From Isoetes taiwanensis (taxonomy: Eukaryota > Streptophyta > Lycopodiopsida > Isoetales > Isoetaceae), in the NCBI GenBank assembly GCA_021234155.1, contig JAJEKV010000040.1, positions 7,060,438 to 7,124,437 of the forward strand: 64,000 bases of DNA, given 5' to 3'. The notes below the pieces were generated by a model, which ran no database searches, was not told the DNA's origin, and saw only the letters and a list, made by a program, of their open reading frames with translations. Of this stretch, positions 15,596 through 46,050 are shown one piece after another (the first letter of the stretch is position 1; each line of letters opens with the position of its first letter). A program made the translations under genes and the position numbers.

Positions 15596-16795
15596 AATGG
15601 TAAACCTGGACATGTAAGTGCAATGGTTAACCTAGACAACCATGTGTAGTGGTAAACCTAGACAACATAGTGTAGTGGTAAACTTTGGACATGCACTTGA
15701 GATGGTAAACTTGGACATGTAGGTGCAATGGTTAGCACGGACAAACTAAGTGTAGTGGTAAACTTGGACTTCCAAGTAAAATGGTAAACCTGGACATGTA
15801 GGTGTAATGGTTAACCTAGACAACCATGTCCAGTGGTAAACCTAGACAACTAAGTGTAGTGGTAAACTTGGACATGCAAGTCAATGGTAAACTTGGACAT
15901 GCAAGTGCAATGGTTAGCCTGGACAACCATGTCCAGTGGTAAACCTGGACATGCAAGTGTAATGGTAAACCTGGACAACTAAGTGTAGTGGTAAACCTGG
16001 ACATGCAAGTCAAATGGTAAACCTGGACATATAGGTGCAATGGTTAACCTAGACAACCATGTGTAGTGGTAAACCTAAACAACTTGGTGTAGTGGTAAAC
16101 CTGGACATGCACTTGAGATGGTTAACTTGGACGTGTAGGTGCAATGGTTAGCCTGGACAACTAAGTCTAGTGGTAAACTTGGACTTCCAAGTTAAATGGT
16201 AAACCTGGACATGTAGGTGTAATGGTTAACCTAGACAACCATGTCAGTGGTAAACCTAGACAACTAAGTGTAATGGTAAACTTGGACATGCAAGTCCAAT
16301 GGTAAACTTGGACATGCAAGTGCAATGGTTAGCCTGGACAATCATGTCTAGTGGTAAACCTAGACAACTTAGTGTAGTGGTAAACCTGGACATGCAATTG
16401 AGATGGTAAACATGGACATGTAGGTGCAATGGTTGCTTTGGACATGCAAGTCAATGGTAAACTTGGACATGCAAGTGTAATGGTTAGCCTGGACAACCAT
16501 GTCCAGTGGTAAACCTGGACATGCAAGTGTAATGGTAAACCTAGACAACTAAGTCTAGTGGTAAACCTGAACATGCACTTGAGATGGTAAACCTGGACAT
16601 GTAGGTGCAATGGTTAACCTAGACAACCATGTCTAGTGGTAAACCTAGACAACTAAGTGTAGTGGTAAAGCTGGACATGCACCTGAGATGGTAAACCTGG
16701 ACATGCAAGTCTAATGGTAAACCTGGACATGTAGGTGCAATGGTTAACCTAGACAACCATGTCTAGTGGTAAACCTAGACAACTAGGTGTAATGG
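15596..16795 (+). repeat. 26-bp minisatellite, block A of FB1 (forward orientation)
   Basis: The unit is about 26 bp, of the form TGGTAAACCTGGACATGCAA plus GTGTAA. Variants (GACAACTAAGTGTAG, GACAACCATGTCTAG) alternate and form higher-order pairs. There are about 46 units. The same family in reverse orientation forms the blocks at 20190-24880 and 42481-43720. The minus-strand frames 15816-16040 and 16329-16610 are just this repeat translated. Confidence 0.9.
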
Positions 16796-17377
16796 CAAAT
16801 AATTAGGAAGCATGGTAGAAAATGTTGCACCAGTTACAGTGGAACAGTGCCATGCAACTTAGATAATGAAAGTGGATTGCACGGAACATCAATCATGCTA
16901 TATTATTCCCCTGTATTGCCTGTGTTATTATTAAATGCTACATCAATCATAGTTGAAGAGTCCCATATCAATCATAGCCTGCATCTGGGTTATAAGAAAC
17001 CTCGACTATCTGAAACCTAATTGTCCTACTCGCAAATGGTGAGCCGAGACCATTTTATATTTGACATGAAATCTAATGGTTGGAGCGAGCATATTTTTAA
17101 ATTGAAATGAAATCTAATGGTTGAAATGAGCAAATGGTCATTTTGCCACGTGTAAACTGTCTGAAGGCATGAACTCATTTGTTTTGGCTATGGCGAGGGT
17201 TACATTTTCGGTGAATCGCCAGTCTTAGTTACATAAGCTCAGCTCCCACCGATCAAGGCGAGGCAAACCGGAAGCCCAAGCGGAGTTCATCCGGGCGCCG
17301 CTTGGGCGCTTGCATTGAAGGGCGGGGGCTGCCACAGAGCTAAGCTTTATTTTTGTGGAATCTTAGGCTCAAGCGCA
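16796..17377. other. Linker between minisatellite block A and the Ulp1-like gene
   Basis: This stretch is conserved at 38051-38667 and, inverted, at about 44720-45000. It includes repeated phrases such as CATCAATCATAGTTGAAGAG. It probably contains the promoter and 5' leader of the Ulp1-like gene. I could not pick a TATA box or start with confidence. Confidence 0.5.
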
Positions 17378-19699
17378 ATGTCATCGATTGAGAGAGCCTT
17401 TCCGACTCAGATAATGAGTACCAGCCCAAACTATGAAGAGAGGAAAGGCTGCAGCAGCCGAGAAGGGAAGGATCTGGGTTGCTTTTCAAAGGGGGCAAAG
17501 AAGGGATGCGCCAAGAAGACACATGTAGAAGAAGGGGAAGAAGGCACAGGGTCCGTTTACCTCACGAGTTGAGGCGGCTTTTCGGTGATGGCGACTTCAC
17601 GAGATAGAAGAACATCACATGAAGCGGGCATACTATCACTCCCTTAAGAAGAAGAGCCACCGTTGTTTAGTTCGAGTGTGTTTGGGACATTGAAAAGCGA
17701 TTGAGGTGCAAGGCACACATGAGCAATGTACATAACCTTGCAGTTGTTGTGGAGGGAGCACCGGTGGGGAAGACGCAAACAAGCAACCACAAAGCAAAAG
17801 AAGGCCAACCCGTGACCTTTTCGGCATATCATCTTGCCTATAGAATGGACCACGAGTGCAGTGCGAGGGTTAATCGAGAGAAGATATCACGAGAAGGTGC
17901 CAAGACCATGCACTCAAGATTGGTTGGGATTGGATTAGCAAAATGAAGGGGTTGATAGGAGATAAGGAGGCAAAGTGACCAAGAAATATCTTTGAAAGAG
18001 TATGTTGCCGGGAGGAATCTTGGGTGGGAAAAAGACAAGGAGGCTAGAATGGCCCGGATATCACGAAGACTATAGCCACTGTTTATGGCTTGGAGGGTGT
18101 TGAGGAGCAAGAGTGGAATCCCTTGGCTGTTGATGACAAGCAGACAAGAGAATCTGAGTGGACTTCCCAAGTTAACCGTGTCATGGCAGATCTAAATAAA
18201 GAAATCCTCAAATCTGATGTGTCGGAGGAAGCCCCAGAGGAGCCACCATGTGAGCCCCCTCGGGCAGCCAGGTAAGTCCACATCCTTCATCTAGTCATGA
18301 GAATCAGCATTCCCCTTTTCCTTCCCCTCTGCTGCAGCTTTCTGATATGATTACACCATCAAAACCAATGAGAGGGTCCTGCCCCATGAGAACAATACCG
18401 AGCCTAGCTCTAGACTATAAGCTAGTTTTCCACACCTTGCAGTAGATAGAGGACCTCTTTACCATGCATTTGGGACTGGGAGGCCTAAATCGGGAAGAAA
18501 ATTGTGCTTTCATACAACTGCCAATGGCCCATTCATGTCAAGAGCCCAATATGGGCTTGGGGTTTTGTCAAGAGAGGTGAATTTGTGATAGAAGCGGGCC
18601 CAGGCCGAGTGCTTTGGCCGGGCCGAACGCGGACGATCCCGAAAAAGATGTTTAAATCATGGGTGAGCGAGGAATGTTGTTGGGGCATATCTAATGTAAG
18701 TTCGGATGATGTAATTGATTTGCTATGTTTGCTTCAATTTAAAACCATGATATGCATTACAATGCGGCTTTAATCCAATTTTTGCTTTATTTGCTTTTAT
18801 GCATTCAAAAGCGCAGGATTCTATCCCATGCAATTTCCATTGATCGGAGGAAGCATCGTTCTTTGGATACATCCTAGTTTGATGGGTGCGTATCTCTGCA
18901 AACATGATCACCTCTTGAATTTGCTCCCACTCCCCAGCTCCATTGAAGCGAAGAAGAAGAGGCGGGAGTCAAAGGAAGGCGAAGACCCAATAGAAGAAAT
19001 ATTTTGGTATTGAAGTATGCGAAGGTAAGTTGACCAATTCTATTTCCCATTAGTGTGTTTTTTTTTTTTACCCTCAAGCACTGATTTTTGCACCGCTGCG
19101 GTGGCCATTGGAGCACTGTATGTATACGCTATGATGTCGAGATACGCAAAGCTCTTGGGACGAACACACCCTCGTTGCTCCACTTTGATTGTGTTAGTGG
19201 CTACCATTCAACCTTGGAAAATCTTTTGCCATGAAGTAAGTTTATTCCTTTGTGTATTGGTTTAGTCATCACAATCTGAATTTCTTTTGATTTGCTTTAG
19301 TGTTCTCAAGAAAGTGCACGAGTCATGGTGCGCCAATCTGCACACGGGTATAGATGTCCTCTTCTTTTTGTGTGCCATGCCAGAGCAAGACAATGGATCG
19401 ATTGTGGCATCTACACTATGTTGTATGCCAAGTATTTTTCCAGAATTTCATTTTGAAGAAGGCCGATGAACCCTATCCAGAAGGCAAGTAAAAAGTCATA
19501 TATTGTTTTGTTAACAATTGTTTATCACGGGGTCCAAATTGACCTTGCATTCCGTTTCCTTTCGGATAACCAAGAAATGGTTTACCATTTCAGCGAATTA
19601 ACCAATTGTAGGAAGTCCTTTTCCTTTATGCTAGGTAAACTGCATCAGGCTATAGTGACAGGTCAAACGCCAAGGAAGACTCCAGCACAGGTTGAATGA
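17378..19699 (+). pseudogene. Ulp1-like (C48) protease gene, FB1 left-arm copy, broken
   Basis: Homologous to the copies at 32300-35815 (-) and 38668-40792 (+). The start (17378) is chosen from the aligned ATG of the third copy. It encodes in order an acidic/serine-rich N-terminus, a C2H2-like region (frame lost near 17655), and a middle segment with ESEWTSQVNRVMADLNKEIL (18154-18213). The C-terminal Ulp1 domain follows: GHWS near 19102 (catalytic His), LLHFDCVSGYHST near 19176 (catalytic Asp) and PEQDNGS-CGIY near 19381-19410. A one-base deletion there shifts the frame just before the catalytic Cys. Introns with GTAAG donors are likely (for example after AGCCAG near 18271). Ulp1-like genes carried by plant MULE and foldback elements are known (Kaonashi-type). 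The role here is inferred. Confidence 0.7.
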
Positions 19700-19829
19700 G
19701 AATAATTATCTGAAAATTTCTGCTCTAAAAACAATTATCCGAAAATCATTTCTTGTCTGTTTGCTTTTTTTCCTGCTAAAACTTTTTTCTTGCTAACCCT
19801 TTTATGTCGGGCGAGGGGGTGCCTTTTGT

Positions 19830-22800
19830 ATTTATATCATTTCGGTGCCACTATAAGTATATAAAAAGCTGATGTTATTTTGGCTTCAGATTTAAACATA
19901 TCATGCAAACATATCATGTAAACATAAAATTCCAAACATAATGTAAGCATATTAAGTATATAGTTCTAAACATCATGTAAACATATCTTGTAAATATAAA
20001 GTAAGTATATCTTGCAAACATATCATGTGAACATAAAATAGACTTACATAAAATTCTAAACATCATGTATGTAAATAAACATCATGTGCACATATCAAGT
20101 ATACATTTCCAAACATCATGTAAACATATCTTGTAAACATCAAGTAAACATATCTTGCAAACATATCTTGCTAACATATCTTGCTAACATGTCTATACTT
20201 ACATGTCTAGGTTAACCACTTTATATGGATGTCCAGGTTAACCAGAAGACTTACATGTCTAGGTTTACCACTTTACATGGATGTCCAGGTTAACCACTAG
20301 ACTTACATGTCTAGGTTAACCACTAGAGTTGCATGTCTAGGTTTACCACTAGAGTTACATGTCCAGGTTTACCACTAGACTTGCGTGTCTAGGTTAACCA
20401 CTAGAGTTGCATGTCTAGGTTAACCACTTTACATGGATGTCGGGTTTACCACTAGAGTTACATGTCTTGGTTAACCACTAGAGTTTCATGTCTAGGTTAA
20501 CCACTTTATATGGATGTCCAGGTTTACCACTAGACTTACTTGTCTAGGTTAACCACTAGAGTTGCATGTCTAGGTTAACCACTTTACATGGATGTCCAGG
20601 TTTACCACTAGACTTACTTGTCTAGGTTAACCACTAGAGTTGCATGTCTGGGTTAACCACTTTACATGGATGTCGGGTTTATGCTTACTTGTCTAGGTTA
20701 ACCACTAGAGTTGCATGTCTAGGTTAACCACTTTACATGGATGTCGGGTTTACCACTAGGCGTGTTACATGTCTAGATTAACCACTAGAGTTGCATGTCT
20801 GGGTTAACCACTTTACATGGATGTCGGGTTTACCACTAGACTTACTTGTCTAGGTTAACCACTAGAGTTACATGTCTGGGTTAACCACTTTACATGGATG
20901 TCGGGTTTACCACTAGACTTACTTGTCTGGGTTAACCACTAGAGTTGCATGTCTAGGTTAACCACTTTACATGGATGTCGGGTTTACCACTAGACTTACT
21001 TGTCGGGTTAACCACTAGAGTTGCATGTCTGGGTTAACCACTTTACATGGATGTCGGGTTTACCACTAGGCTTGTCTGGGTTAACCACCTAAATTGGATC
21101 ATTTGTCTAGGTTAACCACTATACATGTGTCTTGTCTGGGTTAACCACTTTACATGGTTACATGTCAGGTTAACCACTAGACTTACATGTCTAGGTTAAC
21201 CACTAGAGTTGCATGTCTGGGTTAACCACTTTACATGGATGTCGGGTTTACCACTAGACTTGCATGTTAACCACCTAATGTCGGGATCACTTTTGTCTAG
21301 GTTAACCACTATACTTGTCTGGGTTAACCACTTTACATGGTTGTCGGGTTAACCACTAGACTTACATGTCTGGGTTAACCACTAGAGTTACATGTCTAGG
21401 TTAACCACTTTACATGGATGTCGGGTTTACCACTAGATGTCCGGGTTAACCACCTAAGTGGATCATTTGTCTAGGTTAACCACTATACTTGTCTAGGTTA
21501 ACCACTCTACTTGTCTAGGTTAACCACTTTACATGGTTGTCCAGGTTAACCACTAGACTTACATGTCTAGGTTAACCACTATAGTTACTTGTCCGGGTTT
21601 GACATGGATGTCAGGTTGACCACTGGTTACCACTAGGTTACATGTTCTTTTACCACTAGATTTAAACATATCGTGCAAACATATCATGTAAATGTAAAAT
21701 TCCAAACATAATGTAAGTCATATTAAGTATATAGTTTAACCATCATGTAAATATATCTTGTAAATATAAAGTAAGTATATCTTGCAAACATATCATGTGA
21801 ACATAAAATAGACTTACATAAAATTCTAAACATCATGTATGTAAATAAACATCATGTGTCACATATCAAGTATACATTTCCAAACATCATGTAAACATAT
21901 CTTGTTAAACACAAGGTTAAACATATCTTGCAAACATATCTTGCTATCATGTCTATACTTACATGTCTGGGTTAACCACTTTATATGGATGTCGGGTTAA
22001 CTATGAAGACCTACATGTCTAGGGTTTACCACTTTACATGGATGTCGGGTTAACCACTAGACTTACATGTCTGGGTTAACCACTAGAGTTGCATGTCTGG
22101 GTTTACCACTAGAGTTACATGTCAGGTTTACCACTAGACTTTACATGTCTAGGTTAACCACTAGAGTTGCATGTCTAGGTTAACCACTTTACATGGATGT
22201 CGGGTTTACCACTAGAATTGACATGTCTAGGTTAACCACTAGAGTTGCATGTTTGGGTTAACCACTTTATATGGATGTCGGGTTTACCACTAGACTTACT
22301 TGTCTAGGTTAACCACTAGAGTTGCATGTCTAGGTTAACCACTTTACATGGATGTCAAGGTTTACCACTAGATGTCTTACTTGTCTAGGTTAACCACTAG
22401 AGTTGCATGTCTAGGTTAACCACTTTACATGGATGTCCAGGTTTACCACTAGACTTACATGTCTAGGTTAACCACTATAGTTGCATGTCGGGTTAACCAC
22501 TTTACATGAATGTCAGGTTTACCACTAGATGTCTAGATTAACCACTAGAGTTACATGTCTAGGTTAACCACTTTACATGGATGTCCAGGTTTACCACTAG
22601 ACTTACTTGTCTTGGTTAACCACTAGAGTTGCATGTCTTGGTTAACCACTTTACATGGATGTCGAGGTTTACCACTAGACATAGATGTCTAGGTTAACCA
22701 CTAGAGTTGGATGTCTAGGTTAACCACTTTACATGGATGTCAGGTTTACCACTAGAAGGTTAACCACTAGAGTTGCATGTCAGGGTTAACCACTAGACAT

Positions 22801-24880
22801 GGATGTCTACCCTCAAACCACTAGACTTACATGTCTAGGTTAACCACTAGAGTTGCATGTCTAGGTTAACCACTTTACATGGATGTCGGGTTTACCACTA
22901 GGCTTGTCTAGGTTAACCACCTAAGACTGGATCATTTGTCTAGGTTAACCACTACTTGTCTAGGTTAACCACTATACTTGTCTAGGTTAACCACTTTACA
23001 TGGTTGTCTAGGTTAACCACTAGACTTACATGTCTAGGTTAACCACTAGAGTTGCATGTCTAGGTTAACCACTTTACATGGATGTCCAGGTTTACCACTA
23101 GACTTGTCCAGGTTAACCACCTAAGTGGATCATTTGTCTAGGTTAACCACTATACTTGTCTAGGTTAACCACTTTACATGGTTGTCCAGGTTAACCACTA
23201 GACTTACATGTCTAGGTTAACCACTAGAGTTGCATATCTAGGTTAACCACTTTACATGGATGTCCAGGTTTACCACTAGACTTGTCGGGTTAACCACCTA
23301 AGTGGGATCATTTGTCTAGGTTAACCACTATACTTGTCTAGGTTAACCACTCTACTTGTCTAGGTTAACCACTTTACATGGTTGTCCAGGTTAACCACTA
23401 GACTTACATGTCTAGGTTAACCACTATAGTTACTTGTCCAGGTTAACCACTTGACATGGATGTCCAGGTTGACCAGGGTGCCTTTTGTATTTGTATCGAC
23501 TCGGTGCCACTATAAGTATATAAAAAGCTGATGTTACTTTGGCTTCAGATTTAAACATATCGTGCAAACATATCATGTCTGGGTTAAGCATATTAATGTA
23601 TATAGTTCTAAACATCATGTTAACATCATCTTGTAAATATAAAGTAAGTATATCTTGCAAACATATCATGTGGGTTAAAATAGACTTACATAAAATTCTA
23701 AACATCATGTATGTAAATAAACATCATGTGCACATATATCAAGTATACATTTCCAAACATCATGTAAACATATCTTGTAAACATCTTTAAACATATCTTG
23801 TTAAAAACATATCTTGCTAACATGTCTATACTTACATGTCTAGGTTAACCACTTTATATGGATGTTAAGACTTACATGTCTAGGTTTACCACTTTACATG
23901 GATGTCCAGGTTAACCACTAGACTTACATGTCTAAGGTTAACCACTAGAGTTGCATGTCTAAAGTGGGTTTACCACTAGAGTTACATGTGGTTTACCATG
24001 TCTAGGTTAACCACTAGACTTGCATGTCTAGGTTAACCACTTTACATGGATGTCTAGGTTTACCACTAGGACTGACATGTCTAGGTTAACCACTAGACTT
24101 GCATGTCTAGGTTAACATATACATGTCTAGGTTTACATGGATGTCGGGTTTACCACTAGGCTTACTTGTCTAGGTTAACCACTAGTTGCATGTCTAGGTT
24201 AACCACTTTACATGGATGTCCAGGTTTACCACTAGACTTACATGGATGTCCAGGTTTACCACTAGACTTGTCCAGGTTAACCACCTAAGTGGATCACTTG
24301 TCTAGGTTAACCACTATACTTGTCTAGGTTAACCACTTTACATGGTTGTCGGGTTAACCACTAGACTTACATGTCTAGGTTAACCACTAGAGTTGCATAT
24401 CTAGGTTAACCACTTTACATGGATGTCCAGGTTTACCACTAGACTTGTCCAGGTTAACCACCTAAGTGGATCATTTGTCTAGGTTAACCACTATACTTGT
24501 CTAGGTTAACCACTCTACTTGTCTAGGTTAACAACTTTACATGGTTGTCGGGTTAACCACTAGACTTACATGTCTGGGTTAACCACTATAGTTACTTGTC
24601 CAGGTTAACCACTTGACATGGATGTTCAGGTTGACCACTAGACAGCCTAGTCTAGGTTAACCACTAGAGTTGCATGTCTAGGTTAAGCACTTGACATGGT
24701 TGTTCTGGTTAACCACTAGAGTTGTCTAGGTTATCCACTAGAGTTGTCCAGGTTAACCACCATACTTGTCTAGTTTAACCACTATACTTGTCCAGGTTTA
24801 CCACTATACTTGTCGAGGGTTTACCACTATACTTCTCGGGTTAGGTTAACCAATGGTCCTTGTCTAGGTTAACCAATAGC
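19830..24880 (-). repeat. Minisatellite block B of FB1 (reverse orientation), three higher-order units
   Basis: The block is the same 26-bp family as block A in reverse orientation: GGTTAACCACTAGAGTTGCA plus TGTCTA. Three higher-order units of about 1.8 kb start near 19830, 21656 and 23477. Each opens with an AT-rich preface of 12-mers such as AAACATATCTTG and AAACATCATGTA. The first and third prefaces also share a stretch containing AAGTATATAAAAAGCTGATG. The block holds on the order of 150 units. It is the mirror partner of 26885-28970. Confidence 0.9.
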
Positions 24881-25055: not shown

Positions 25056-25125
25056 TTCTATCTACGTCGTTCTTCCATTGTGCGACTTCCACTCCCATTC
25101 TTTCAATTGATTTTTTAGTGAAGCT

Positions 25126-25640
25126 ATGGAAGATGTGCTCAGGGTGCTTGAACCCTAGAGATCAAAGGTTCTTTTGGGAGTAGCATAATATACCGGTTTT
25201 ACTAGTAGGCCTTGCTTACATGCAACTTGTATAAATTTTTTCTTTAAACCATGTAGGTGTGGGATCTTCTATCTTGGTGTAGGAGTCGATTTGAGGAAGA
25301 TAATGGGAGTATTCGAATACCCCCCCCTCTAGTGGTGAAGAGGAAGAGGACATGAGATGAGGATACAACGGATGAAGCTCTTCAAAGAAATACGATGCCC
25401 GAAAAGGCAATGAGGGCCTTTGCTTGGGGTACTATTTTGCCTCGAAGGGTAAGAGTGTGTCTATGGTACCTTTTGGAACCACACCCGAGAAAAAGTTGAT
25501 AAAAACCTTCTATCAACTATACTACGGAGAGCCTTCTCGACATGGGTTGTGGTTCAAGGGTGACCCGAGGCCGGCGACTTCACACTAGAACAGACACGGT
25601 TTTCGAGAGGAATCTGAGAGAGTTCTTTGGGTGAAGTCCT
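25126..25640 (+). pseudogene. Small FB-borne gene, left-arm copy, broken
   Basis: This aligns with the copy at 43968-44388. It begins MEDVLRVLEP and stops at once, where the third copy reads MEDVLRRLNQIQGELRIRE. The second exon, after a GGTGTAGGAG acceptor near 25283, is also frameshifted. The family is unknown. Confidence 0.5.
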
Positions 25641-26095
25641 ATGGTTTCGGATTGATTTCGTTGTTTTTCTAGTAATGGTCTAAGGAAGGTTTCTCATAAT
25701 GTAATTGTTTTTTCAAATTTACACTTGGTTTCTTCTTATTTGGTGAGTGCTTAGACATCTAAGTCTAGTGGTAAAAATGTGTAACCAAGAATAACTTTGG
25801 ACATCTCCGTTGGTTAACACAGTGGGCCTAGTTTAGTAGTTATTGAAACTATTATACTAAACCACTAAACTAGGTCTCTGGGTTAACCTGGAGATTTCAG
25901 TGGTTAACCACCTTGGTTACACATTTTACCACTAGACTTAGATGTCTAAGCACTCCCTCAAATAAGAAGAAACCAAGTGTAAATTTGAAAAAACTATTAC
26001 ATTATGAGAAACCTTCCTTAGACCATTAGACTATGAAAAATAACGTGGTTCAATCTGAACCATAGGACTTCACCCAAACAACTCTGTATTCTCGA
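25600..26095. repeat. Central hinge of FB1 inverted repeat
   Basis: Symmetry centre near 25850, with innermost arms CCTAGTTTAGT (25827-25837) and ACTAAACTAGG (25864-25874). Outward on both sides run matching segments: CTAGTGGTAAAAATGTG against CACATTTTACCACTAG, TTACACTTGGTTTCTTCTTA against its complement, and the GAAGTCCTATGGTT block. Similarity then continues for kilobases on each side. Confidence 0.85.
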
Positions 26096-26149
26096 GCATT
26101 CGACTCACGGTTTCTAGTGTGAAGTCCCGACCTCGCCATCACCCTTGAA

Positions 26150-26603
26150 CCACAACTCCATGTCAAGAAGGTCGGGCCAGAATATAGTGGATTGCGGTAA
26201 TCATTTTTATCAACTATCTATTCTTAGTGGTGCTTCCAAAGTCTAAGCCATCTCACGGAGACACACTCTTACCCTTCGAAAGAGGGTGCTTTGCCCCCCA
26301 ATGAGTGCCCTCATTGCCTTTTCGCCGATCAGGTATTTCTTCAAGACCTTCATCTGTTGTATCCTCATCTCATAGTCCTCTTCCTCTTCCGGAGGAGGGG
26401 GTATTCGAGTGACTCCCTTCTCGGCCATCTTCTCGACGGCTCCTACACCAAGATAGAAGATCCCACACGAAGTTAGAAAGGAAAAATCTACAGAAGTTGC
26501 ATGTAAGCAAGGCCTTACTAGTAAAAACCGGTTCCATATTATGCTGCTCCCGAATTCTGAGCTCCCCTTGGATCTGGTTCAAGCGTCGGAGCACATCTTC
26601 CAT
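26150..26603 (-). pseudogene. Small FB-borne gene, right-arm copy
   Basis: The minus-strand ATG at 26603 gives MEDVLRRLNQIQGELRIRE. A second segment (26428-26243) reads MAEKGVTRIPPPPEEEEDYE, then MRIQQMKVLKKYLIGEKAMR, and ends RVCLREMA. The two segments lie in different frames and are probably joined by splicing. The predicted product is small, proline/glutamate-rich, then basic and amphipathic. A one-base difference near 26300 changes the tail relative to the third copy. Family unknown. Confidence 0.5.
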
Positions 26604-26675
26604 AGCTGGTCACTAAAAAACAATTGCAAGAATGGGAGTGGAAGCTGCACAATGGAAGAACGCATCGAGATAGAA

Positions 26676-26684
26676 CTATTTATA
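26676..26684 (-). promoter_or_regulatory. TATA box of the small FB gene, right arm
   Basis: On the minus strand this is TATAAATAG, 73 bp before the ATG at 26603. It is the mirror of the site at 25047-25055. Confidence 0.6.
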
Positions 26685-35300: not shown

Positions 35301-35815
35301 GCAATTGGCTATAGTCTTCGTTATATCGGCCATTCTAGCCTCCTTGTCTTTTTTTCCCACTTTCGGCATTCCTCCCGGCAACATACTCTCAAAGCATATT
35401 TCTTGGGGCTTTGCCTCCTTATCTCCTATCAACCCCTTCATTTTGCTAACCCGATCCCAACCAATCTTGAGTGCATGGTCTTGGCACCTTTCGGATATCT
35501 TCTACGATTAATCCCTGCACTGTACTGGTTTCGGGGTCCATTCTATAGGCAAGATGATATGACGAAAGGTCACGGTTGGGCCTTCTCTTTTGCTCTGTGG
35601 TTGCTTGCCTGCGTCTTCCCACTGGTGCTCCCTCCACAACAACTGCAAGGTTATGTACATTGCTCATGTGTGCCTGCACCCTCAACCTCTTTTCAGTGTC
35701 CCATACACACTCGGGAACTAAACAGTAGTGCCTCTTCTTCTTAAGGGAGTAATAGTATGCCTGCTTAATATGATGTTCCTCTATCTCATGTACGAAATCA
35801 GTGAAAGGGGCAATC
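32200..35815 (-). pseudogene. Ulp1-like (C48) protease gene, FB1 right-arm copy, with internal tandem duplication
   Basis: Read on the minus strand, the 5' part (35815-35650) is the best preserved of all copies. It gives a C2H2-type finger: CLVPEC (35724-35707), then HMSNVH (35670-35653). The middle and protease segments then occur twice. Unit b (about 35310-33833) has PCPEQDNGSDCGIY (near 34030-33989) but its GHWSL region is shortened to GHLY. Unit a (33832-32300) has an intact GHWSLYVFCYD (near 32780), LLHFDC (near 32706) and DCGIYTI (near 32480). Two small indels between Glu and Asp of the PEQ..DCG loop restore the frame there. The duplicated unit is about 1.5 kb and joins at CTATAGTCTTTG/TTATCTGG near 33830. 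Together the two units supply the catalytic His, Asp and Cys, but no single open frame was traced. Confidence 0.75.
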
Positions 35816-35887
35816 CAATCTCGCCATTCATATTAAATTCTGGCATTTATGAGGAGCGGATCTCATCGATCAAAAAATTCTAATTCA

Positions 35888-35984
35888 ATTGGAAACCTCT
35901 CCAATTTTCCCAATGGAAACCTCCCCAAGCTTCCAGGGAAAACTGGGGAGGTTTCCATATAAGAAAATTGGGGAGGTTTCCAAT
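35888..35984. repeat. Nested double hairpin
   Basis: The outer arms are 35888-35909 and 35963-35984 (21 of 22 pairing or better). The inner arms are 35913-35929 and 35943-35958 (ATGGAAACCTCCCCA against TGGGGAGGTTTCCAT). All four arms share the word GGAAACCTC(T/C)CC. The folded form would be a stem of about 40 bp with a short loop. It lies just outside the Ulp1 similarity, between FB1 and FB2. Confidence 0.8.
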
Positions 35985-36556
35985 CTTGGGAGTCTAACCA
36001 AATTCGGGCGTAGATAGTTTGATCGTTGGATTCGGGATATTACGTCATTTTTTGAATTGTTTTTTGTCTTATCTAGATCACTGCCTCTCTATTACCATTC
36101 TTCCTCTCGCACCCACCGCCTGAGCGCCCAACCTATTCCGACCATGTGACCCAGCTAGGGGTGTGAGCACCAAAGACCTCCGTAGGACTTAGGCCTAGTG
36201 ATTATGGGCAAATCGGCAGCATGCCAGGCCGTTCCTAGCACTAGGCATTTCGGCCCTTCTTGTTCAAGTAGCTTTAGCAGGCATGTTCAAATAAAACAAG
36301 AAACAGAAGAAGAAGATCAGCTTCACGGCTGTGGGCTCCAGCAATGGCCTCACCAGCCTCCAGTTCGGTCTGCCATCATCAATTCCGACCAGCCCATTTA
36401 GCCACGACCAGCTCATAAAATCACCATAGAGGTGTCAATCAGTTTACAGGCCTGCCCAGTGTATAGCCCCATCAGATGCGTCTCAAGGAAGTTGGCGACA
36501 AAACGTATAGCATTCAAGCACATCATCACGCAATCCCCACAAGGCCATCATCCAAA
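35985..36556. other. Spacer between FB1 and FB2
   Basis: No gene supported. The segment is of mixed composition and contains a GGGGTGTGAGCACC stretch near 36156. Short open frames at 36198-36401 and 36432-36614 show no family features. Confidence 0.35.
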
Positions 36557-37109
36557 GACGGGCGCCAGTATTCCTACTCCGGAAGTGGTAAACCCGGGCA
36601 GAAAATCGTGGTAAGCTCGGCCATGGATCGAATCACCATCGGCCTGCCAATGCATCATGCATCGGCCATCCCGGATGGCCCATCCGCTATCCGAGGCATG
36701 CATCCGAAGCCCATGCTATGGATGGGAACCGGCGAAAGGGATCGCCACACCCCGCTTTAAGGAATGGACTCCTGAGGGGCCGCTATGGAGAATGATGATC
36801 CCTCAATCATCACCGTACGCTCCCCGCAATGGCAGGCCGTTTGAACCACCCGAAGTATGATTTCGAAGATGCTATTGTAAAGAAATAAATATTATTTTCT
36901 GCTATTGTTTTGCCACGGTTTTATGAAAGTGTTTTTTTAGTAATGTGCTCCATTGCTCCAATGTGCTCCATTTTGAAGATACATGTCAACCTAACAACTT
37001 TTTTTTGCTAAAAAAACCCAACTTATCAAGTTTTTTAGCAAAATCAGTAAGTATTGTCACTGGATAACCAACCTTAACAGTAAGTATTGTCACATAATCA
37101 CCCTAACCT

Positions 37110-38050
37110 AATGTAACCCTAGACAACCATAGTAGTTAACCTAGTGACATATGCAAGTGTAATGGTTAGCCTAGACAACCATGTCCAGTGGTAAACCTGG
37201 ACATGCAAGTGTAATGGTAAACCTAGACAACTAAGTGTAGTGGTAAATCTGGACATGCACTTGAGATGGTAAACTTGGATATGTAGGTGCAATGGTTAGC
37301 CTGGACAACTAAGTCTAGTGGTAAACTTGAACTTCCAGAGCATATTTGGTAAACCTGGACATGTAGGTGTGCTGGTTAACCTAGACAACAATGTCTAGTG
37401 GTAAACCTAGACAACTAAGTGTAGTGGTAAACTTGGACATGCAAGTCCAATGGTTAGCCTGGACAACCATGTCCAGTGGTAAACCGGGACATGCAAGTGT
37501 AATGGTAAACCTAGACAACTAAGTGTAGTGGTAAACATGAACATGCAAGTCAAATGGTAAACCTGGACATGTAGGTGCAATGGTTAACCTAGACAACCAT
37601 GTGTAGTGGTAAGCCTAGACAACATAGTGTAGTGGTAAACCTGGACATGCACTTGAGATGGTAAACTTGGACATGTAGATGCAATGGTTAGCCTGGACAA
37701 TAAGTGTAGTGGTAAACTTGGACTTCCAAGTTAAATGGTAAACCTGGACATGTAGGTGTAATGGTTAACCTAGACAACCATGTCCAGTGGTAAACCTAGA
37801 CAACTAAGTGTAGTGGTAAACTTGGACATGCAAGTCCAATGGTAAACTTGAACATGCAAGTGCAATAGTTAGCCTGGACAACCATGTCCAGTGGTAAACC
37901 TGGACATGCAAGTGTAATGGTAAACCTGGACAACTAAGTGTAGTGTTAAACCTGGACATGCAAGTCAAATGGTAAACCTGGACATGTAGGTGCAATGGTT
38001 AACCTAGACAACCATGTCTAGTGGTAAACCTAGACAACTAGGTGTAATGG
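37110..38050 (+). repeat. Minisatellite block of FB2 (forward orientation)
   Basis: About 36 units of the 26-bp family (TGGTAAACCTGGACATGCAA and variants), in the same order of variants as block A of FB1. The minus-strand frame 37804-37995 is repeat translation only. Confidence 0.9.
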
Positions 38051-38667
38051 CAAATAATTAGGAAGCATGGTAGAAAATGTTGCAGCAGTCACAGTGGAAC
38101 AGTGCCATGCAACTTAGATAATGAAAGTGGATTGCACGGAACATCAATCATGTTATATTATTCCCCTGCATTGCCTGTGTTATTATTAAATGCTACATCA
38201 ATCATAGTTGAAGAGTCCCATATCAATCATAGTTGAAGAGTTCCATATCAATCACAGCCTGCATCTGGGTTATAAGAAACCTCGACTATCCTGCAGAATT
38301 GTCCTACTCTGCAAATGGTGAGCCCGAGACCATTTTTATATTTGACATGAAATCTAACGGTGGAACATAGCATATTTTTAAATTTGAAATAAAATCTAAT
38401 GGTTGAAATGAGCAAATGGTTGTTTGCCACGTGTAAACCTGTCTGAAGGCATGAACTCGACTATTTTGGCTATGGCTGAGTTCTGTTTCCCGGGTGAATG
38501 CGCTCAGTATTAGTTCTGTTCAGCTCGCGCTCCCACCTGATCAAGGCCGAGAGGCAAACCGAAGCTCAAACGGAGTTCATCTGGCGCCGGCTTGGGCCGC
38601 TTGCATTGAAGGGCAGGGCTGCCACAGAGCTAAGCTTTATTTTTGTGGAATCTTAGGCTCAAGCGCA
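38051..38667. other. Linker and presumed 5' region of the FB2 Ulp1-like gene
   Basis: Homologous to 16796-17377. It includes CATCAATCATAGTTGAAGAG repeated twice (about 38197-38235) and a GC-richer part before the ATG. No convincing TATA box. Confidence 0.45.
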
Positions 38668-40792
38668 ATGTCATCAGATTCAGAGAGCCTTTCCGACTCT
38701 GATAATGAGTACCAGCCCAGCTATGAAGAGAGGAAAGCTGCAGCAGCCGCGAAGGGGAAGGATCCGGTTGCTTTTCAAAAGGGGGCAAAGAAGGGATCGC
38801 CAAGAAGACACGATAGAAGAAGGGAAGAAGGCGCAGGGTCCGTTTACCTCCCCGAGGTTGAAGCGACTTTTCAGTGATGACGACTCGAGATAGAGGAACA
38901 TCACATGAAGCGTGCATACTATCACTCCTTTAAGAAGAAGAGGCACGACCGTTGTTTAGTTTCCGAAAGTGTGTATGGGACCCCGAAAAGAGGTTGAGGC
39001 TGCAGCACACATGAGCAATGTACATAACCTTGCGCTTGTTGTGGAGGGAGCAATTTTTGGGAAGGCGCTGAGGGCAAGCAACCACAAAGCAAAAAGAGAA
39101 GGCCCAACCGGTGACCTTTCGCATATCATCTTGCCTATAGAATGGACCCGAGTACAGTGCAATGTGGTTAATCGAGAGAAGATATCCGAGAAGGTGCCAA
39201 GACCATGCACTCAAGATTGGTTGGGATCGGGTTAGCAAAATGAAGGGGTTGATAGGAGATAAGGAGGCAAAGCACCAAGAAATATCTTTGAAGAGTATGT
39301 TGCCAGGAGGAATGCTGAGTGGGAAAAAGACAAGGAGGCTAGAATGGCCAGATATACGAAGACTATAGCCACTGTTTATGGCTTGGAGGGTGTTGAGGAG
39401 CAAGAATGGAATCCCTTGGCTGCTGATGACAAGCAGACAAGAGAATCTGAGTGGACTTCCCAAGTTAACCGTGTCATGGCAGATCTAAATAAAGAAATCC
39501 TCAAATCTGATGTGTCGGAGGAAGCCCCCGAGGAGCCACCATCAGCAGAGCCCTCGGGCAGCCAGGTAAGTCCACATCCTTCATCTAGTCATGAGAATCA
39601 GCATTCCCCTTTTCCTTCCCCTCTGCTGCAGCTTTCTGATATGATTACACTATCAAAACCAATGAGAGGGTCCTGCCCCATGAGAACAATGCTGAGCCTA
39701 GCTCTAGACTATAAGCTAGATTTCCACACCTTGCAGTAGATAGAGGACCTCTTTACCACGGCTGGGACTGGGAGGCCTAAATCCGGGAAGAAAATTGTGC
39801 TTTCATACAACTGCCAATGGCCCATTCACGTCAAGAGCCCAATATGGGCCTGGGGTTCTCATCAAGAGAGGTGAATTTGTGATAGAGCAGGCCCAGGTGT
39901 AGTGCTTTGAGTTTAACAGCACCAGACGATCCAGAAAAAGATGTTTAAATCATGGGTGAACGAGGAATCTGTTGGGCCATATCTAATGTAAGTTCTTCCA
40001 CTGTAATTGATTTGCTATGTTTGCTTCAATTTAAAAACCATGATGTGCATTCATGCGGCTTTAATCCAATTTTTTTTTTGCTTTATTTGCTTTCATGCAT
40101 TCAAAGCAGATTGATCGGAGGAAGCATCATTCTTTGGATACATCCTAATTTGATGGGTCTCGTATCTGCAAAACATGATCACCTCTTCGAGAAGTCAAGC
40201 CCCACTCCCACCAGCTCCATTGAAGCGTAAGAAGAAGAGACAGGATTCAAAGGAAGACGAAGATCCAATAGAAGAAATATTTTGGTATTGGCTGCCCGTA
40301 TGCTGAAGGTAAGTTGACCAATTCTATTTCCCATTAGTGTGTTTTTTTTTAACCCTCAAGCACTGATTTTTGCACACCGCAGTGGGCCATTGAGCCCCTC
40401 AGATGTATTCTCGCTATGATGTTCTAGATCTGCAAAGCTCTTGGGACGAATACACCCTCGTTGCTCCACTTTGATTGTGTTAGTGACTACCATTCAACCT
40501 TGGAAAATGCTGCCATGAAGTAAGTGTATTCCCTTTGTGTATTGGTTTAGTCATCATAATCTGAATTTCTTTTGATTTGCTTTAGTATTCTCAAGAAAGT
40601 GCACGAGTCATGGTCTGCCAATCACCACGCGTATGCGGATGTCCTTCTTCTTCGTGTGCCATGCCCCGAGCAAGACAATGGATCTGATTGTGGCATCTAC
40701 ACTATATTGTATGCCAAGTATTTTCTCCAGGATTTCATTTTGAAGAAGGCCGAGGAACCCTATCCGAAGGCAAGTAAAAAAGTCATATATTG
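38668..40792 (+). pseudogene. Ulp1-like (C48) protease gene, FB2 copy, nearly intact but broken
   Basis: The ATG at 38668 opens an acidic serine-rich N-terminus (MSSDSESLSDSDNEYQPSYE), then an Ala/Lys stretch. The C2H2-like region lies at about 38945-39020. The middle frame 39344-39739 is long and clean (TIATVYGLEGVEEQEWNPL, TRESEWTSQVNRVMADLNKE, SEEAPEEPPSAEP), and probably ends at a GTAAG donor after AGCCAG (39566). FHTLQ is followed by TAG near 39737. In the Ulp1 domain the His region reads GGCCATTGAGCC (40386), so the Trp after the catalytic His is a stop. LLHFDCVSDYHST is near 40462. The Cys loop is intact: PCPEQDNGSDCGIYTILYAK (40662-40721). The gene is truncated at about 40792 by a replaced segment. 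Confidence 0.75.
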
Positions 40793-42253
40793 CTTCGGTT
40801 CTATTGCGCTAGCAATAGAACCGCCATTCCTTGGATGGGGACGCCACCTCAGCTCCTTTCCCTTTTTATAGCCCATTTTTCCTTTTCTTTGGTTATCGGC
40901 GTTCTCCTTGGGCTTTTCTCCTATCTTACGGTCGCCTCTACCTGGTTTCCTACCTTCAACTAAGCCGGTCGTACCTGAAGAGCTCAACTGTGGTGTGCCT
41001 ACCGCCTACGTGCCTACCCAAGAAAGCTTGTTCAAGGTACGATGATCGTGATATTTTTTATTTTAATCCTGTTTCGTTTGTGGTTCGTGATTCTTCTCTG
41101 GGTTGGGATGCATTTTTTCGGAGTCTTGGCGTCAATCCCCTCCCGGTTATGGCATGGTCAAGGATTTCTTGAGCGTTTTTCGGTTAGTTGGTTGCTTTCG
41201 ATTTTTGTTCCTGTTTGTTTTGATTCAGTTGAATCCGGCTTGCTTGCCAACAACTTGGCTCTTCTTGCCTCCGGAACCTTTTTTGGTTTTTCTGTTTTTG
41301 TCGGCCTCGCCCGGGGAATTGTGGGCTTAATCGGGACCCGTTATCGCCTCCCGCTAAGACGGTTTGGCGATTGGGGCGTGGGGTGCTCTCGATTTCGTTC
41401 GGTTTTGTTTTGATTCGGCCGAATCCGTCTTGGCCTTTGGGTCTTCTTGTTTCCGGAAACCCTTTGGTTTTTTCTCTTTGTCCAGCCTCTGCCATTGAAT
41501 TGTGGGCAAATCCGGCCCGTTACTATCTCCTGCCAGTCGGTTTGGCAGTGGGGCATGGATTCGGCTGCCATAGCCCGAGCCTGCTGCTCCGGTGCTCGAT
41601 CCGGTTTCGGCCACCCTCCCTAGCTCCTCCTCAGATCATTTTCCAGGTCCGATTTCTTGTATTTCCAATCTATTGCTCAAGTTCCTCTTCGATACTGCTT
41701 CTCGGTCTCTGTGTTGGCTTCAAGATCGGCCTCCTTTGCTTACTCCAGTTACTGCCCTTACTTTTTGGTTTTCGGCTCTGTCAGGCCCTCCAGCATCCAT
41801 CTCCTCTGCCACCTTCTGTGTTGCCGTCTTTCTCTGCATTCGGTTGTTTTCCCTCTCTGCGTTCCGCCTTCACCGACCTTCATAGCTGCCGCTTCCGTCA
41901 CTTATGATGCAGGGATACCGGACCGTCAACCCGGTTTACCCCGGTTGGTTGGGATACGCTGTCCCAGATTCCCCTCGAACCATTGTTTTTTCTTTTTTGT
42001 TGGGTTAATTTTCGTTTTCGTACCTTATTTGTTTGAGGTTGTTCTTTGGATGTCTTTGTTGTTGGTGTTGTCTTTACCATTTCGTTCTCTGGGTTTCTTT
42101 TCTGGTTGTTATTATTATTTTTGGTCGCAAGTCTCTTTTTCTTTGGGCTTCTTCTCTTCCTAACATTGTCACGTTGGTGCTGTGGGTTCGGTTTTTCTTG
42201 CTTCTTTGCCTTTCCTCGCCCTTTACGTTTTCTCGTCAATTTTTCATCATATG
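40793..42253. other. Replaced segment in FB2, T-rich, with a 191-bp tandem duplication
   Basis: It replaces what in FB1 is about 19506-19945. It starts with a perfect hairpin (arms CGGTTCTATTGC and GCAATAGAACCG, 4-base loop, 40796-40823). It is rich in T and in TC/TG words. A unit of about 191 bp (starting TTTTGATTC(A/G)G near 41219 and 41410) is repeated once and diverged. Many overlapping frames are open on both strands (for example 41371-41907), but none looks like a protein family. Its origin is unknown. Confidence 0.55.
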
Positions 42254-43730
42254 TTAAGTATATAGATCTAAACATCATGTAAACATATCTTGTAAATATA
42301 AAGTAAGCATATCTTGCAAACATATCATGTGAACATAAAATAGACTTACATAAAATTCTAAACATCATGTATGTAAATAAACATCATGTGCACATATCAA
42401 GTATACATTTCCAAACATCATGTAAACATATCTTGTAAACATCAAGTAAACATATCTTGCAAACATATCTTGCTAACATGTCTATACTTACATGTCTAGG
42501 TTAACCACTTTACATGGATGTCCAGGTTAACCAGAAGACTTACATGTCTAGGTTTACCACTTTACATGGATGTCCAGGTTAACCACTAGACTTACATGTC
42601 TAGGTTAGCCACTAGAGTTGCATGTCTACGTTTACCACTAGAGTTACATGTCCAGGTTTACCACTAGACTTGCATGTCTAGGTTAACCACTAGAGTTGCA
42701 TGTCTAGGTTAACCACTTTACATGGATGTCCAAGTTTACCACTAGACTTACATGTCTAGGTTAACCACTAGAGTTGCATGTCTAGGTTAACCACTTTACA
42801 TGGATGTCCAGGTTTACCACTAGACTTACTTGTCTAGGTTAACCACTAGAGTTGCATGTCTAGGTTAGCCACTTTACATGGATGTCCAGCTTTACCACTA
42901 GACTTACTTGTCTAGGTTAACCACTAGAGTTGCATGTCTAGGTTAACCACTTTACATGGATGTCCAGGTTTACCACTAGACTTACTTGTCTAGGTTAACC
43001 ACTAGAGTTGCATGTCTAGGTTAACCACTTTACATGGTTGTCCAGGTTAACCACTAGACTTACATGTCTAGGTTAACCACTAGAGTTGCATGTCTAGGTT
43101 AACCACTTTACATAGATGTCCAGGTATACCACTAGACTTGTCCAGGTTAACCACCTAAGTGGATCATTTGTCTAGGTTAACCACTTTACATGGTTGTCCA
43201 GGTTAACCACTAGACTTACATGTCTAGGTTAACCACTAGAGTTGCATGTCTAGGTTAACCACTTTACATGGATGTCCAAATTTACCACTAGACTTGTCCA
43301 GGTTAACCACCTAAGTGGATCATTTGTCTAGGTTAACCACTATACTTGTCTAGGTTAACCACTCTACTTGTCTAGGTTAACCACTTTACATGATTGTCCA
43401 GGTTAACCACTAGACTTACATGTCTAGGTTAACCACTATATTTACTTGTCCAGGTTAACCACTTGACATGGATGTCCAGGTTGACCACTAGACAGCCTAG
43501 TCTAGGTTAACCACTAGAGTTGCATGTCTAGGTTAAGCACTTGACATGGTTGTCCTGGTTAACCATTAGAGTTGTCCAGGTTATCCACTAGAGTTGTCCA
43601 GGTTAACCACCATACTTGTATAGTTTAACCACTATACTTGTCCAGGTTTACCACTATACTTGTCCACTATACTTGTCCAGGTTAACCACTAGGGTCACTT
43701 GTCTAGGTTAACCAATAGCTAGAATGTCGT
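42254..43730 (-). repeat. Minisatellite block of FB2 (reverse orientation) with AT-rich preface
   Basis: The AT-rich 12-mers (AAACATATCTTG) occupy 42254-42480. About 48 units of GGTTAACCACTAGAGTTGCA plus TGTCTA follow to 43730. It corresponds to one higher-order unit of FB1 block B. Confidence 0.9.
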
Positions 43731-43886
43731 CTTGAGGGTAGGTAAATGTCGTCTCGAGGGTAGTTAAATGTCGTCTCGTGGGTAGGTGAATGCTCTATAG
43801 TGAGGGTAGGTAATAGTCGACTCGTGAGTAGGTAAATGTCTTTATCGATGAAGGGATGTATTTCTAAAACCCTAAACCCCATATTC

Positions 43887-43895
43887 TATAAATAG
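43887..43895 (+). promoter_or_regulatory. TATA box of the small FB gene, FB2
   Basis: TATAAATAG lies 73 bp before the ATG at 43968. It sits in the same conserved context as the sites at 25047 and 26676. Confidence 0.65.
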
Positions 43896-43967
43896 TTCTA
43901 TCTCGATGCGTTCTTCCATTGTGCAGCTTCCACTCCCATTCTTGCAATTGTTTTTTAGTGACCAGCT

Positions 43968-44388
43968 ATGGAAGATGTGCTCCGACGCTTGAACCAGATC
44001 CAAGGGGAGCTCAGAATTCGGGAGTAGCATAATATAAAACCGGTTTTTACTAGTAAGGCCTTGCTTACATGCAACTTCTGTAGATTTTTCCTTTCTAACT
44101 TCGTCTGGGTTCTTCTATCTTGGTGTAGGAGCCGTCGAGAAGATGGCCGAGAAGGGAGTCACTCGAATACCCCCTCCTCCGGAAGAGGAAGAGGACTACG
44201 AGATGAGGATACAACAGATGAAGGCCTTGAAGAAATACCTGATCGGCGAAAAGGCAATGAGGGCACTGCTTGAGGGCACTGCACTGCCTCGAAGGATAAG
44301 AGTGTGTCTCCAGGAGATGGCTCGAGTTTGGAAGCACCACAGAAAAGAGTTGATAAAAATGATTCTGCAGTCAACTCACGGTTTCTAG
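43968..44388 (+). CDS. Small FB-borne gene, best-preserved copy, unknown product
   Basis: Exon 1 from 43968 reads MEDVLRRLNQIQGELRIRE and runs into TAG. A donor (GTAGCA) overlaps that stop, and an acceptor (TTGGTGTAG) lies at 44121-44129. From there a frame gives AVEKMAEKGVTRIPPPPEEE, then DYEMRIQQMKALKKYLIGEK and AMRALLEGTALPRRIRVCLQ, ending ...ILQSTHGF at 44388. The ATG at 44143 could also start it without splicing (81 residues). The product is acidic and proline-rich at the front and basic and helical behind. I do not recognise a family. The alternative frame (44061-44273) is probably a shadow. Exact exon joining is uncertain. Confidence 0.45.
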
Positions 44389-44399
44389 TGTGAAGTCGT

Positions 44400-44700
44400 C
44401 GACCTCGCCATCACCCTTGAACCACAACTCCATGTCGAGAAGGTCGGGCCAGAGTCGAGCTCGAGAGGAATACAGAGAGTTGTTTGGGTGAAGTCCTATG
44501 GTTCAGATTGACTCGTTGTTTTTTCATAGTCTAATGGTCTAAGGAAGGTTTCTCATAATGTAATTGTTTTTTTCAAATTTACACTTGGTTTCTTCTTATT
44601 TGAGGGAGTGCTTAGACATCTAAGTAACCTGAACAGCCTAGTTTAGTGGTTTAGTCAATCTGAACCATAGGACTTCACCCAAACAACCTGATGAAAGCAC
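44400..44700. other. Hinge of FB2 (deletion junction)
   Basis: Matches the central hinge of FB1 up to CCTAGTTTAGTGG. A short mirrored piece (AATCTGAACCATAGGACTTC, complementary to 44488-44510) follows. After about 44690 the sequence is directly the reverse complement of the linker near 38340. The Ulp1 gene and minisatellite expected on the right arm are absent. Confidence 0.65.
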
Positions 44701-46050
44701 AATCAAGTCAAATATAAAAATGGTCTCGGGCTCACCGTTTGCAGAGTAGGACAATTCTGCAGGATAGTCGAGGTTTCTTATAACCCAGATGCAGGCTGTG
44801 ATTGATATGGGACTCTTCAACTATGATTGATATGGGACTCTTCAACTATGATTGATGTAGCATTTAATAATAACACATGCAATGCAGAGGAATAATATAA
44901 CATGATTGGTGTTCCGTGCAATCCAGTTTCATTATCTAAGTTGCATGGCACTGTTCCACTGTAACTGGTGCAACATTTTCCACCATGCTTCCTAATTATT
45001 TGCCATTACACCTAGTTGTCTAGGTTTACCACTAGACATGGTTGTCTAGGTTAACCATTGCACCTACATGTCCAGGTTTACCATCTCAAGTGCATGTCCA
45101 GGTTTACCACTAGACTTAGTTGTCTAGGTTTACCATTACACTTGCATGTCCAGGTTTACCACTGGACATGGTTGTCCAGGCTAACCATTACACTTGCATA
45201 TGTCACTAGGTTAACTACTATGGTTGTCTAGGGTTAACTTCTATGCACGTATATGACATTAGATTAGGGTGATTATGTGACAATACTTACTGTTAAGGTT
45301 GGTTATCCAGTGACAATACTTACTGATTTTGCTAAAAAACTTGATAAGTTGGGTTTTCTTAGCAAAAGAAAGTTGTTAGGTTGACATGTATCTTCAAAAT
45401 GGAGCACATTGGAGCAATGGAGCATATTACTAAAAAAACACTTTCATAAAACCGTGGCAAAACAATAGCAGAAAATAATATTTATTTCTTTACAATAGCA
45501 TCTTCAAAATTATACTTCGGGTGGTTCAAACGGCCTGTCACTGCAGGTTACAAGTGCCATTGTAGGAGCGGGTACGGTGATGATTGAGGGATCACCATTC
45601 TCCATAGCAGCGAGGAGTCCATTCCTTAAGCGGGTGTGAGCAGTCCCTTTCCTTCGGTTCCCGCTTCGGATGCATGCCTCGGATAGCGGATGGGCCATCC
45701 CGGATGGCCGATGCATGATGCATTGGCAGGCCGATGGTGATTCGATCCATGGCCGAGCTTACCACGATTTTCTGCCCGGGTTTACCACTTCTCGGAGTAG
45801 GAATATGGCGCTTCGTCCAGCACACATAAACATCAGTTCAAAGCCCACATCTGTTCAAAGCATATTCTTTTCCAGCTTTGTTTTTGCCTTTTCGCTTTGG
45901 TCCTCCATCACTTTTACGGATACCTCGGCCCAGATGCATGTCGGCAGTTGGACGCAGGTACTGGATATGCTGGAATTCTTGATCAAGGAATATGCATGAG
46001 ATGCTAGTTGCTCTCGCACAGCAAATCGACGAGCCCATCAGACGAACACT

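Follow-up and report, generated by a model that had tools for sequence, protein, structure and literature searches.

We analyzed a 64,000-nucleotide stretch of the Isoetes taiwanensis genome (contig JAJEKV010000040.1, positions 7,060,438 to 7,124,437; hereafter the window) that holds two copies, FB1 and FB2, of a transposable element in which a zinc-finger/Ulp1 gene lies between arrays of a 26-bp repeat. We identify this locus as a rearranged remnant of a once-autonomous family of Mutator-like elements (MULEs) with terminal inverted repeats (TIRs), whose transposase is absent from the window copies. The word conserved in the arrays also occurs in the TIRs. By analogy with the VANC proteins of VANDAL MULEs, we propose, with a probability of about 0.5, that the finger/Ulp1 protein may mediate a VANC-like anti-silencing that the element targets to itself through this word at TIRs and arrays. 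We hold tentatively, at somewhat under even odds, the wider reading of a lycophyte MULE clade with a zinc-finger SUMO protease that would read a TIR word amplified around its own gene, the word co-diverging with the TIR.

The expectation that FB2 belongs to a multicopy family with common ends was borne out in the I. taiwanensis genome (1,658,258,908 bp, 1110 contigs). A 30-base tip pattern allowing up to 3 mismatches had 84 + 86 = 170 matches, compared with 0 for the reversed control, and the ends of the copies coincide with those of FB2 (36560 and 45814). A search with the TIR tip gave at least 41 matches (40 of 94 candidates scored). Nineteen of 20 fetched tips begin with GGAGCG[CT]CGTAT, the exception being the FB1 left end (L017). 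The flanks of the tips differ, except between FB1 and FB2 and in two pairs with near-identical flanks, L009/L010 (~141 kb apart) and L002/L003 (~28 kb apart), which we identify as local duplications taking in the element. An exact 9-bp target site duplication (TSD) was present in 7 of the 14 rows tested (C1031, C1034, C118, C954, C1060, C1095 and C4, a miniature inverted-repeat transposable element, or MITE), and C712 and C1041 matched at 8/9; none was seen in FB2, C68, C457 or two rows of the composite C235. Among 100 tips listed out of the 170 matches, 24 pairs were 326-413 bp apart, the size of MITEs, and 5 pairs were 7-28 kb apart; one of three fetched MITE-size copies had an exact TSD.

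The transposase of the family contains a MULE transposase domain (PF10551, E = 6.4e-19 in C1034), with relatives in other family copies, and a weak match to SWIM (PF04434, 18.3 bits against a cut-off of 19.6). Because of this transposase in fuller copies, the 9-bp TSDs and the common termini, we assign the family to the Mutator superfamily as a TIR MULE, and not to an unclassified foldback family, as the original prediction had it. That prediction saw no transposase and left the source of mobility open; the family's own transposase was indeed not found in the window, but fuller copies carry one.

In eight long copies, the parts present follow one order: TIR, array A, finger/Ulp1 gene, array B, small gene, convergent transposase gene and TIR. 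C1031 retains a short remnant of array B and is without the small gene, C954 is without array A and the Ulp1 end, and C1095 has neither array B nor the small gene, and its transposase is incomplete. No finger match was found in C118. AAACAT repeats follow the Ulp1 gene above threshold in C1031, C1034 and the window copies only; below threshold, they were seen in alignments of C712, C68, C118 and C1060. C1034 also carries reverse-transcriptase-like frames, which we read from their sequence as an insertion of a long interspersed nuclear element (LINE). In copies with a TSD, the TIRs are ~60-340 bp long, and the arrays are internal and flank the Ulp1 gene, so the minisatellites are not the arms of the element, as first described. 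A long inverted end (806 columns) occurs only in FB2, which shows no TSD. A foldback element as the basic unit was ruled out by fuller copies with TIRs, TSDs and internal arrays.

Within the array unit, conservation falls on a ~15-bp core, TGGTWAACCTRGACA, and not on the spacer, as judged from 430 array A and 365 array B units of nine copies that were picked by the core itself, a selection that favors core conservation. In 798 in-register units taken one period further along, without core selection, the core carried 0.64-1.64 bits, with 13 of 15 positions above 1.0, compared with 0.30-0.71 bits at spacer positions 14-19, -5 and -4; this set also keeps T at -6 (1.56 bits), A at -3 (1.11 bits) and G at -2 (0.84 bits). 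A control anchored on the spacer gave 0.18-1.68 bits for the core and no clear core, and was too loose. Unit spacing varies (22, 25, 26, 27 and 30), and array length differs widely among copies. An exact 16-mer of the array, GGTTAACCTAGACATG, occurs 497 times in the genome and its reversed control 0 times, which excludes chance recurrence. The 100 of these 497 places that were listed form seven clusters, all adjoining family features by hand assignment.

The same core is found in the TIR. In the TIR consensus, which was typed by hand for scoring, it lies at +27 from the tip with a score of 17.97. None of 20000 Markov shuffles (maximum 11.03) and none of 538 background tiles attained this value. 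Scores above the shuffle maximum were obtained for 18 of 20 genomic ends. The array word is also carried by a MITE tip (L037), as GTGGTAAACCTAGACA.

Homologues of the finger gene and of the transposase are common in the genome (150 of 539 and 150 of 1724 candidates scored, respectively), and in many cases no more than some kilobases separate the two. Arrays were present near the finger/Ulp1 gene in 8 of 8 fetched relatives, with words that differ from that of the window's family (family I); 7 of another 11 left ends had such arrays too, which added family VI:

Family II (C930, C919): GGGTTAATGTGGCC
Family III (C1106): TGGTTTATCTGGACA
Family IV (C1031b, C1048, C985, C932): GGTGTTTCTGGCCA
Family V (C1025): GGTTAATCAGGACA
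Family VI (among the 11 further left ends): GGTATTTCTGGCCA

In seven of the eight relatives, the arrays lie within 3.75 kb of the transposase; in the eighth, C1106, they lie further off. Arrays of at least 4 units were not found within 7.5 kb of any of three MULE loci without a detectable finger/Ulp1 gene (0/3).

Overall, with exceptions among the families, the array words track the TIR sites of their own families. For families I, II and IV, all 13 TIR rows scored highest, out of five matrices, with that of their own array (10.8-24.0), and 0-22 of 2000 shuffles reached this score. A diagonal test, using one or two hand-typed array words per family, gave a sum of 75 against a mean of 65.3 for the first TIR site and 76 against 66.2 for all TIR sites, with 4 of 720 permutations as high in each case. 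The own pairing of TIR and array was the sole best in families I, II and IV; the family III TIR rests on a single degenerate end. By the listed consensus units, paired arrays are inverted in families I, III and V and direct in family IV; those of family II are mostly direct, with a mixed third array. Foldback geometry is thus not essential to the arrangement.

The finger and protease parts read from the window were upheld. A C2H2-type module (C-x4-C-x12-H-x4-H) stands ahead of an Ulp1 domain (PF02902, Peptidase_C48; E = 7e-8, 33.0 bits) detected on a composite conceptual splice. In nine aligned sequences of the module, the two Cys and the second His do not vary, and one sequence lacks the first His. 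AlphaFold2 modeled the finger region as two short strands followed by a helix around the Cys/His residues, at low confidence (mean predicted local distance difference test score, pLDDT, of 64.8). The Ulp1 His, Asp and Cys (HWSL, HFDC and DCG) are in frame in C1031 and C1095, and we predict a C48 protease with its catalytic triad residues present. Pooled ratios of nonsynonymous to synonymous substitution (dN/dS), from 7-8 partly decayed copies per part, were 0.42 for the finger, 0.21 for the middle and 0.38 for the Ulp1 end, and 0.59 and 0.62 for two parts of the transposase. The small gene near the hinge is, as anticipated, a family feature and recurs across copies; its protein had no Pfam matches. 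No DUF1985/DUF287 domain, the VANC type, was found by Pfam in the finger, Ulp1 or small protein.

In the mechanism that we propose, a sequence-specific protein of the element would bind the word in both places, TIRs and arrays. The most likely candidate to load onto the arrays is the finger/Ulp1 protein, perhaps together with the transposase, and its SUMO-protease domain would there strip SUMO from silencing factors. The element's genes would remain expressed, as with VANC in the VANDAL elements of Arabidopsis, and the arrays would grow by slippage, giving specificity for self. VANC in Arabidopsis is a worked case of transposon escape from silencing. The proposal bears on how a transposon can evade silencing while the remainder of the genome stays silenced. 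It offers candidate readers of short DNA words that are joined to a deSUMOylase, and it allows the coevolution of a reader with its target to be tested by comparing several families within a single distant plant.

Several observations weigh against this proposal. Two genomic ends, C1031_R and C1034_L, score 9.33 and 10.35, under 11.03, and a weaker second copy of the word in the TIR at +50 (23 bp further in) scores 9.33, also below the shuffle maximum. For the two rows of family V, 696 and 630 out of 2000 shuffles scored as high as the own matrix, the TIR of this family fits the family III array (14/15) better than its own (12/15), and the own pairings of families III and VI tie with those of other families. 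Such arrays were not found in 3.7 kb at 4 of the 11 further homologues (C929, C1007, C1027 and C996); C1007 has a 28-bp repeat of a different kind, and C929 has a TIR-like word close to the gene, its element being perhaps little covered. The three control MULEs are few, have no tblastn match to the family's transposase and belong to a distant lineage, and they cannot separate lineage from gene because a close transposase is missing from them too. The conceptual splices of all copies contain stops (12 of 12 rows), which are partly an artefact of using one set of alignment columns for every row, hence the composite used in the PF02902 search. The small gene has a pooled dN/dS of 0.78, indicating weak constraint, and tblastn with it in the eight relatives gave no matches.

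The arrays might instead be auxiliary transposase-binding sites, that is, transposition enhancers of the Galileo type amplified from the TIR site, with an unrelated role for Ulp1. The word lies 27-65 bp from the tip and is the same in TIR and array in families I, II and IV, and the transposase is an equally natural reader of it because it must bind the TIRs. A ~32-bp motif in Mutator TIRs is described as bound by MURA (PMC3310237), and tandem repeats in the Galileo TIRs are described as offering its transposase several sites to bind (PMC3688188). However, movement does not require the arrays because MITEs without arrays (~330-460 bp) have spread; moreover, the arrays surround the Ulp1 gene and not the termini, and the three MULEs without finger/Ulp1 were also without arrays, though these are distant MULEs. 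We consider this explanation unlikely, but one to be taken seriously. It is improbable that the arrays are neutral minisatellites formed by slippage in intergenic DNA, their likeness to the TIR coming from an amplified old TIR fragment. The wide variation in array length, the unlikeness of the family V array to its own TIR and the existence of MULEs with duplicated TIRs (described in PMC3310237) would fit such an origin, but the core is kept while spacer and spacing vary, arrays stand beside the gene in 8 of 8 relatives and 7 of 11 further ends, and the words of TIR and array correspond on the whole.

Two further explanations carry little weight. The position of array A upstream of the Ulp1 gene and of array B upstream of the small gene, together with the promoters and enhancer motifs described for MuDR TIRs (PMC3310237), would suit ordinary promoter or enhancer elements of these two genes bound by a host factor. 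A different word in each related family is not expected for a host factor, and the exact 16-mer lies only beside family features among its listed places, which leaves this explanation a slim chance. A new foldback family without a transposase, moving by minisatellite arms, would account for the palindromes, the inverted arrays and the missing family transposase of the window, but it is contradicted by the MULE transposase, TIRs and 9-bp TSDs of fuller copies, the direct arrays of family IV also speak against it, and we give it next to no credence. Self-targeted anti-silencing by the finger/Ulp1 protein is the reading that we prefer.

The window itself was laid out using Tandem Repeats Finder with motif clustering for the repeat blocks and tblastn with alignment for the FB1 finger/Ulp1 gene. 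Its features are as follows:

1-613, plus: left TIR and subterminal part of FB1, whose tip lies ~27 bp upstream of the window start
614-712, plus: beginning of array A of FB1 (26-bp repeat)
713-15595, no strand: another, nested transposon, not a family member, splitting array A of FB1; inverted ends ATTAGGGCGGATTTGGGGTCTCAAAA
15596-16799, plus: continuation of array A of FB1 (30 matches to the strict core pattern)
17378-19479, plus: FB1 zinc-finger/Ulp1 gene, decayed
19893-20180, plus: 13-bp AAACAT-type repeats between the Ulp1 gene and array B of FB1
20193-24879, minus: array B of FB1, in three stretches with AAACAT repeats ahead of each
25071-25842, plus: left palindrome arm of FB1, small-gene region
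25856-26659, minus: right palindrome arm of FB1, small-gene region, after a 13-bp spacer (25843-25855)
26884-28776, plus: inverted array B in the right arm of FB1
28974-31907, no strand: DNA unmatched in other copies, with a papain-like protease fragment
31908-33836, minus: inverted zinc-finger/Ulp1 gene, copy 1
33827-35806, minus: inverted zinc-finger/Ulp1 gene, copy 2, in tandem with copy 1
35785-36559, plus: duplicate of FB1 left-flank DNA (L038 8254-9000 against 35785-36587)
36560-45814, plus: FB2, the second element copy
36560-37153, plus: left TIR and subterminal part of FB2, with array-type word GTGGTAAACCCGGGCA at 36585
37154-38054, plus: array A of FB2
38668-40775, plus: FB2 zinc-finger/Ulp1 gene, with apparent frameshifts and stops, some possibly assembly errors
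42269-42483, plus: AAACAT repeats of FB2
42482-43717, minus: array B of FB2
43887-44376, plus: FB2 small gene, with TATA-like box TATAAATA at 43887, ATG at 43968 and a second coding stretch at 44140-44376
44371-44453, minus: segment of FB2 inverted relative to C1034, C712, the FB1 arms and most other matches
44703-45814, minus: right end of FB2 (TIR, array units and leader), an inverted left-end copy replacing the transposase half
44999-45199, minus: array units of the FB2 right end

The six blocks seen by the original prediction share a single repeat whose unit is 26 bp long; array B also contains some units of 22 bp. Most of its block boundaries fall within tens of bases of ours, except that its second block had taken in AAACAT repeats. 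It described the orientations as alternating; the blocks are inverted across each Ulp1 gene, but their order (+, -, +, +, -, -) is not strictly alternating.

The reported inversion of FB1 around 25850 was confirmed as a palindrome centered at ~25849, whose arms (25071-25842, plus, 76%; 26659-25856, minus, 89%) both match one 0.8-kb stretch of C712. The left end of FB1 (3-710) aligns to both 36591-37259 (87%) and 45782-45091 (90%). We identify the right part of FB1 as the inner portion of its left side copied in inverted orientation, with a doubled Ulp1 gene and other DNA at 28974-31907; FB1 has lost the transposase half. The left flank of FB1, outside the window, matches 35785-36240 at 94% (456 columns) and 36275-36587 at 83% (318 columns). 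Because this flank is common to both, FB2 with its flank is a duplicate of the FB1 left side, and an independent insertion of FB2 was ruled out. The right end of FB2 matches its own left end, inverted, at 96% over 497 columns and 88% over 806 columns, and we identify FB2 as derived from FB1 by segmental duplication, its right end being an inverted left end. The large palindrome and the FB2 end would have arisen later, by template switching or recombination. The nested two-level foldback, seen earlier as the design of the element, is thus a local rearrangement, consisting of an inverted duplication in FB1 and a copy, FB2, that shares the FB1 left flank. A conserved hairpin after the small gene was considered and ruled out, as the segment is inverted in FB2 relative to C1034, C712 and the FB1 arms.

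The transposon nested in array A is 14.9 kb long, and no target duplication was found for it by eye. It holds a remnant of a MULE transposase (5183-6705, 37-53% identity) related to that of the family. The papain-like cysteine protease fragment in the right part of FB1 (29840-30000; PF00112, E = 1.4e-5, 32 aa) is possibly a captured host gene. In FB2, the Ulp1 gene is separated from the AAACAT repeats by ~1.4 kb (40795-42250) that contains internal repeats at 72% and had no blastn matches in the eight other copies. A protein kinase exon at 54257-54619 (PF00069, E = 3e-8) likely belongs to a host gene. Scans of the window for tRNA genes and Rfam families gave no matches, as did Pfam searches with five of its open reading frames.

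Mismatches are ~2-3 times commoner at CAG/CTG/CCG/CGG than elsewhere in FB1, FB2, FB1i2 and C1060, as compared over window positions 17350-19750, 33840-35830 and 38640-41000 plus L032+L033. In FB1, for example, the rate is 0.289 at these sites and 0.100 elsewhere. The mismatches comprise both substitutions and deletions, and the excess is absent from C712 and C954. The I. taiwanensis assembly is described as built from nanopore reads and polished with Illumina data (PMC8566536). In an assembly based on nanopore reads, apparent stops and frameshifts may come from base-calling errors at CHG-methylated sites, and such errors may point to silenced copies; an alternative is older deamination.

Foldback elements with tandem-repeat arms include FARE of Arabidopsis and FB of Drosophila. 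The resemblance of the window copies to these arises after rearrangement, as fuller copies are TIR-MULEs with internal arrays. The family shares a MULE transposase (here with a SWIM match below the cut-off), a 9-bp TSD and an internal TIR site with MuDR/Mutator of maize and other TIR-MULEs, but differs from them in its extra finger/Ulp1 gene, its internal arrays and a small protein without a Pfam match. Galileo, a foldback-like transposon of the P-element type in Drosophila, likewise has words repeated in tandem repeats, which are described as binding its transposase (PMC3688188); it belongs to another superfamily, and its repeats are inside long TIRs. Ulp1 cargo is also described in MULEs of melon and rice (reviewed in PMC13317346) and of grapevine. 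These resemble the present family in their Ulp1 cargo and differ from it in that the finger fusion and arrays are found here. Among the titles and abstract openings listed in a literature search, neither this family nor arrays that match the TIR and surround a finger/Ulp1 gene were found described.

The closest parallel is with VANDAL elements, whose VANC proteins are reported to bind rapidly diverging noncoding tandem-repeat motifs and to cause loss of methylation (PMC5735166, PMC10398659). Both are MULEs with a transposase and extra genes, and in both a short family-specific motif forms noncoding tandem repeats that differ between related families. Some VANC genes, those of Kaonashi/KIU, are described as carrying Ulp1 (PMC13317346), which recalls the Ulp1 gene here. 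Unlike VANDAL elements, the present family has clear TIRs, a C2H2-type module, no DUF1985/DUF287 matches and a lycophyte host, and, unlike VANDAL as described in the available text of PMC5735166, PMC10398659 and PMC13317346, its array word also lies in the TIR. If our proposal is true, anti-silencing based on deSUMOylation would either be much older than the VANC/KIU system of eudicots or have evolved in parallel with it.

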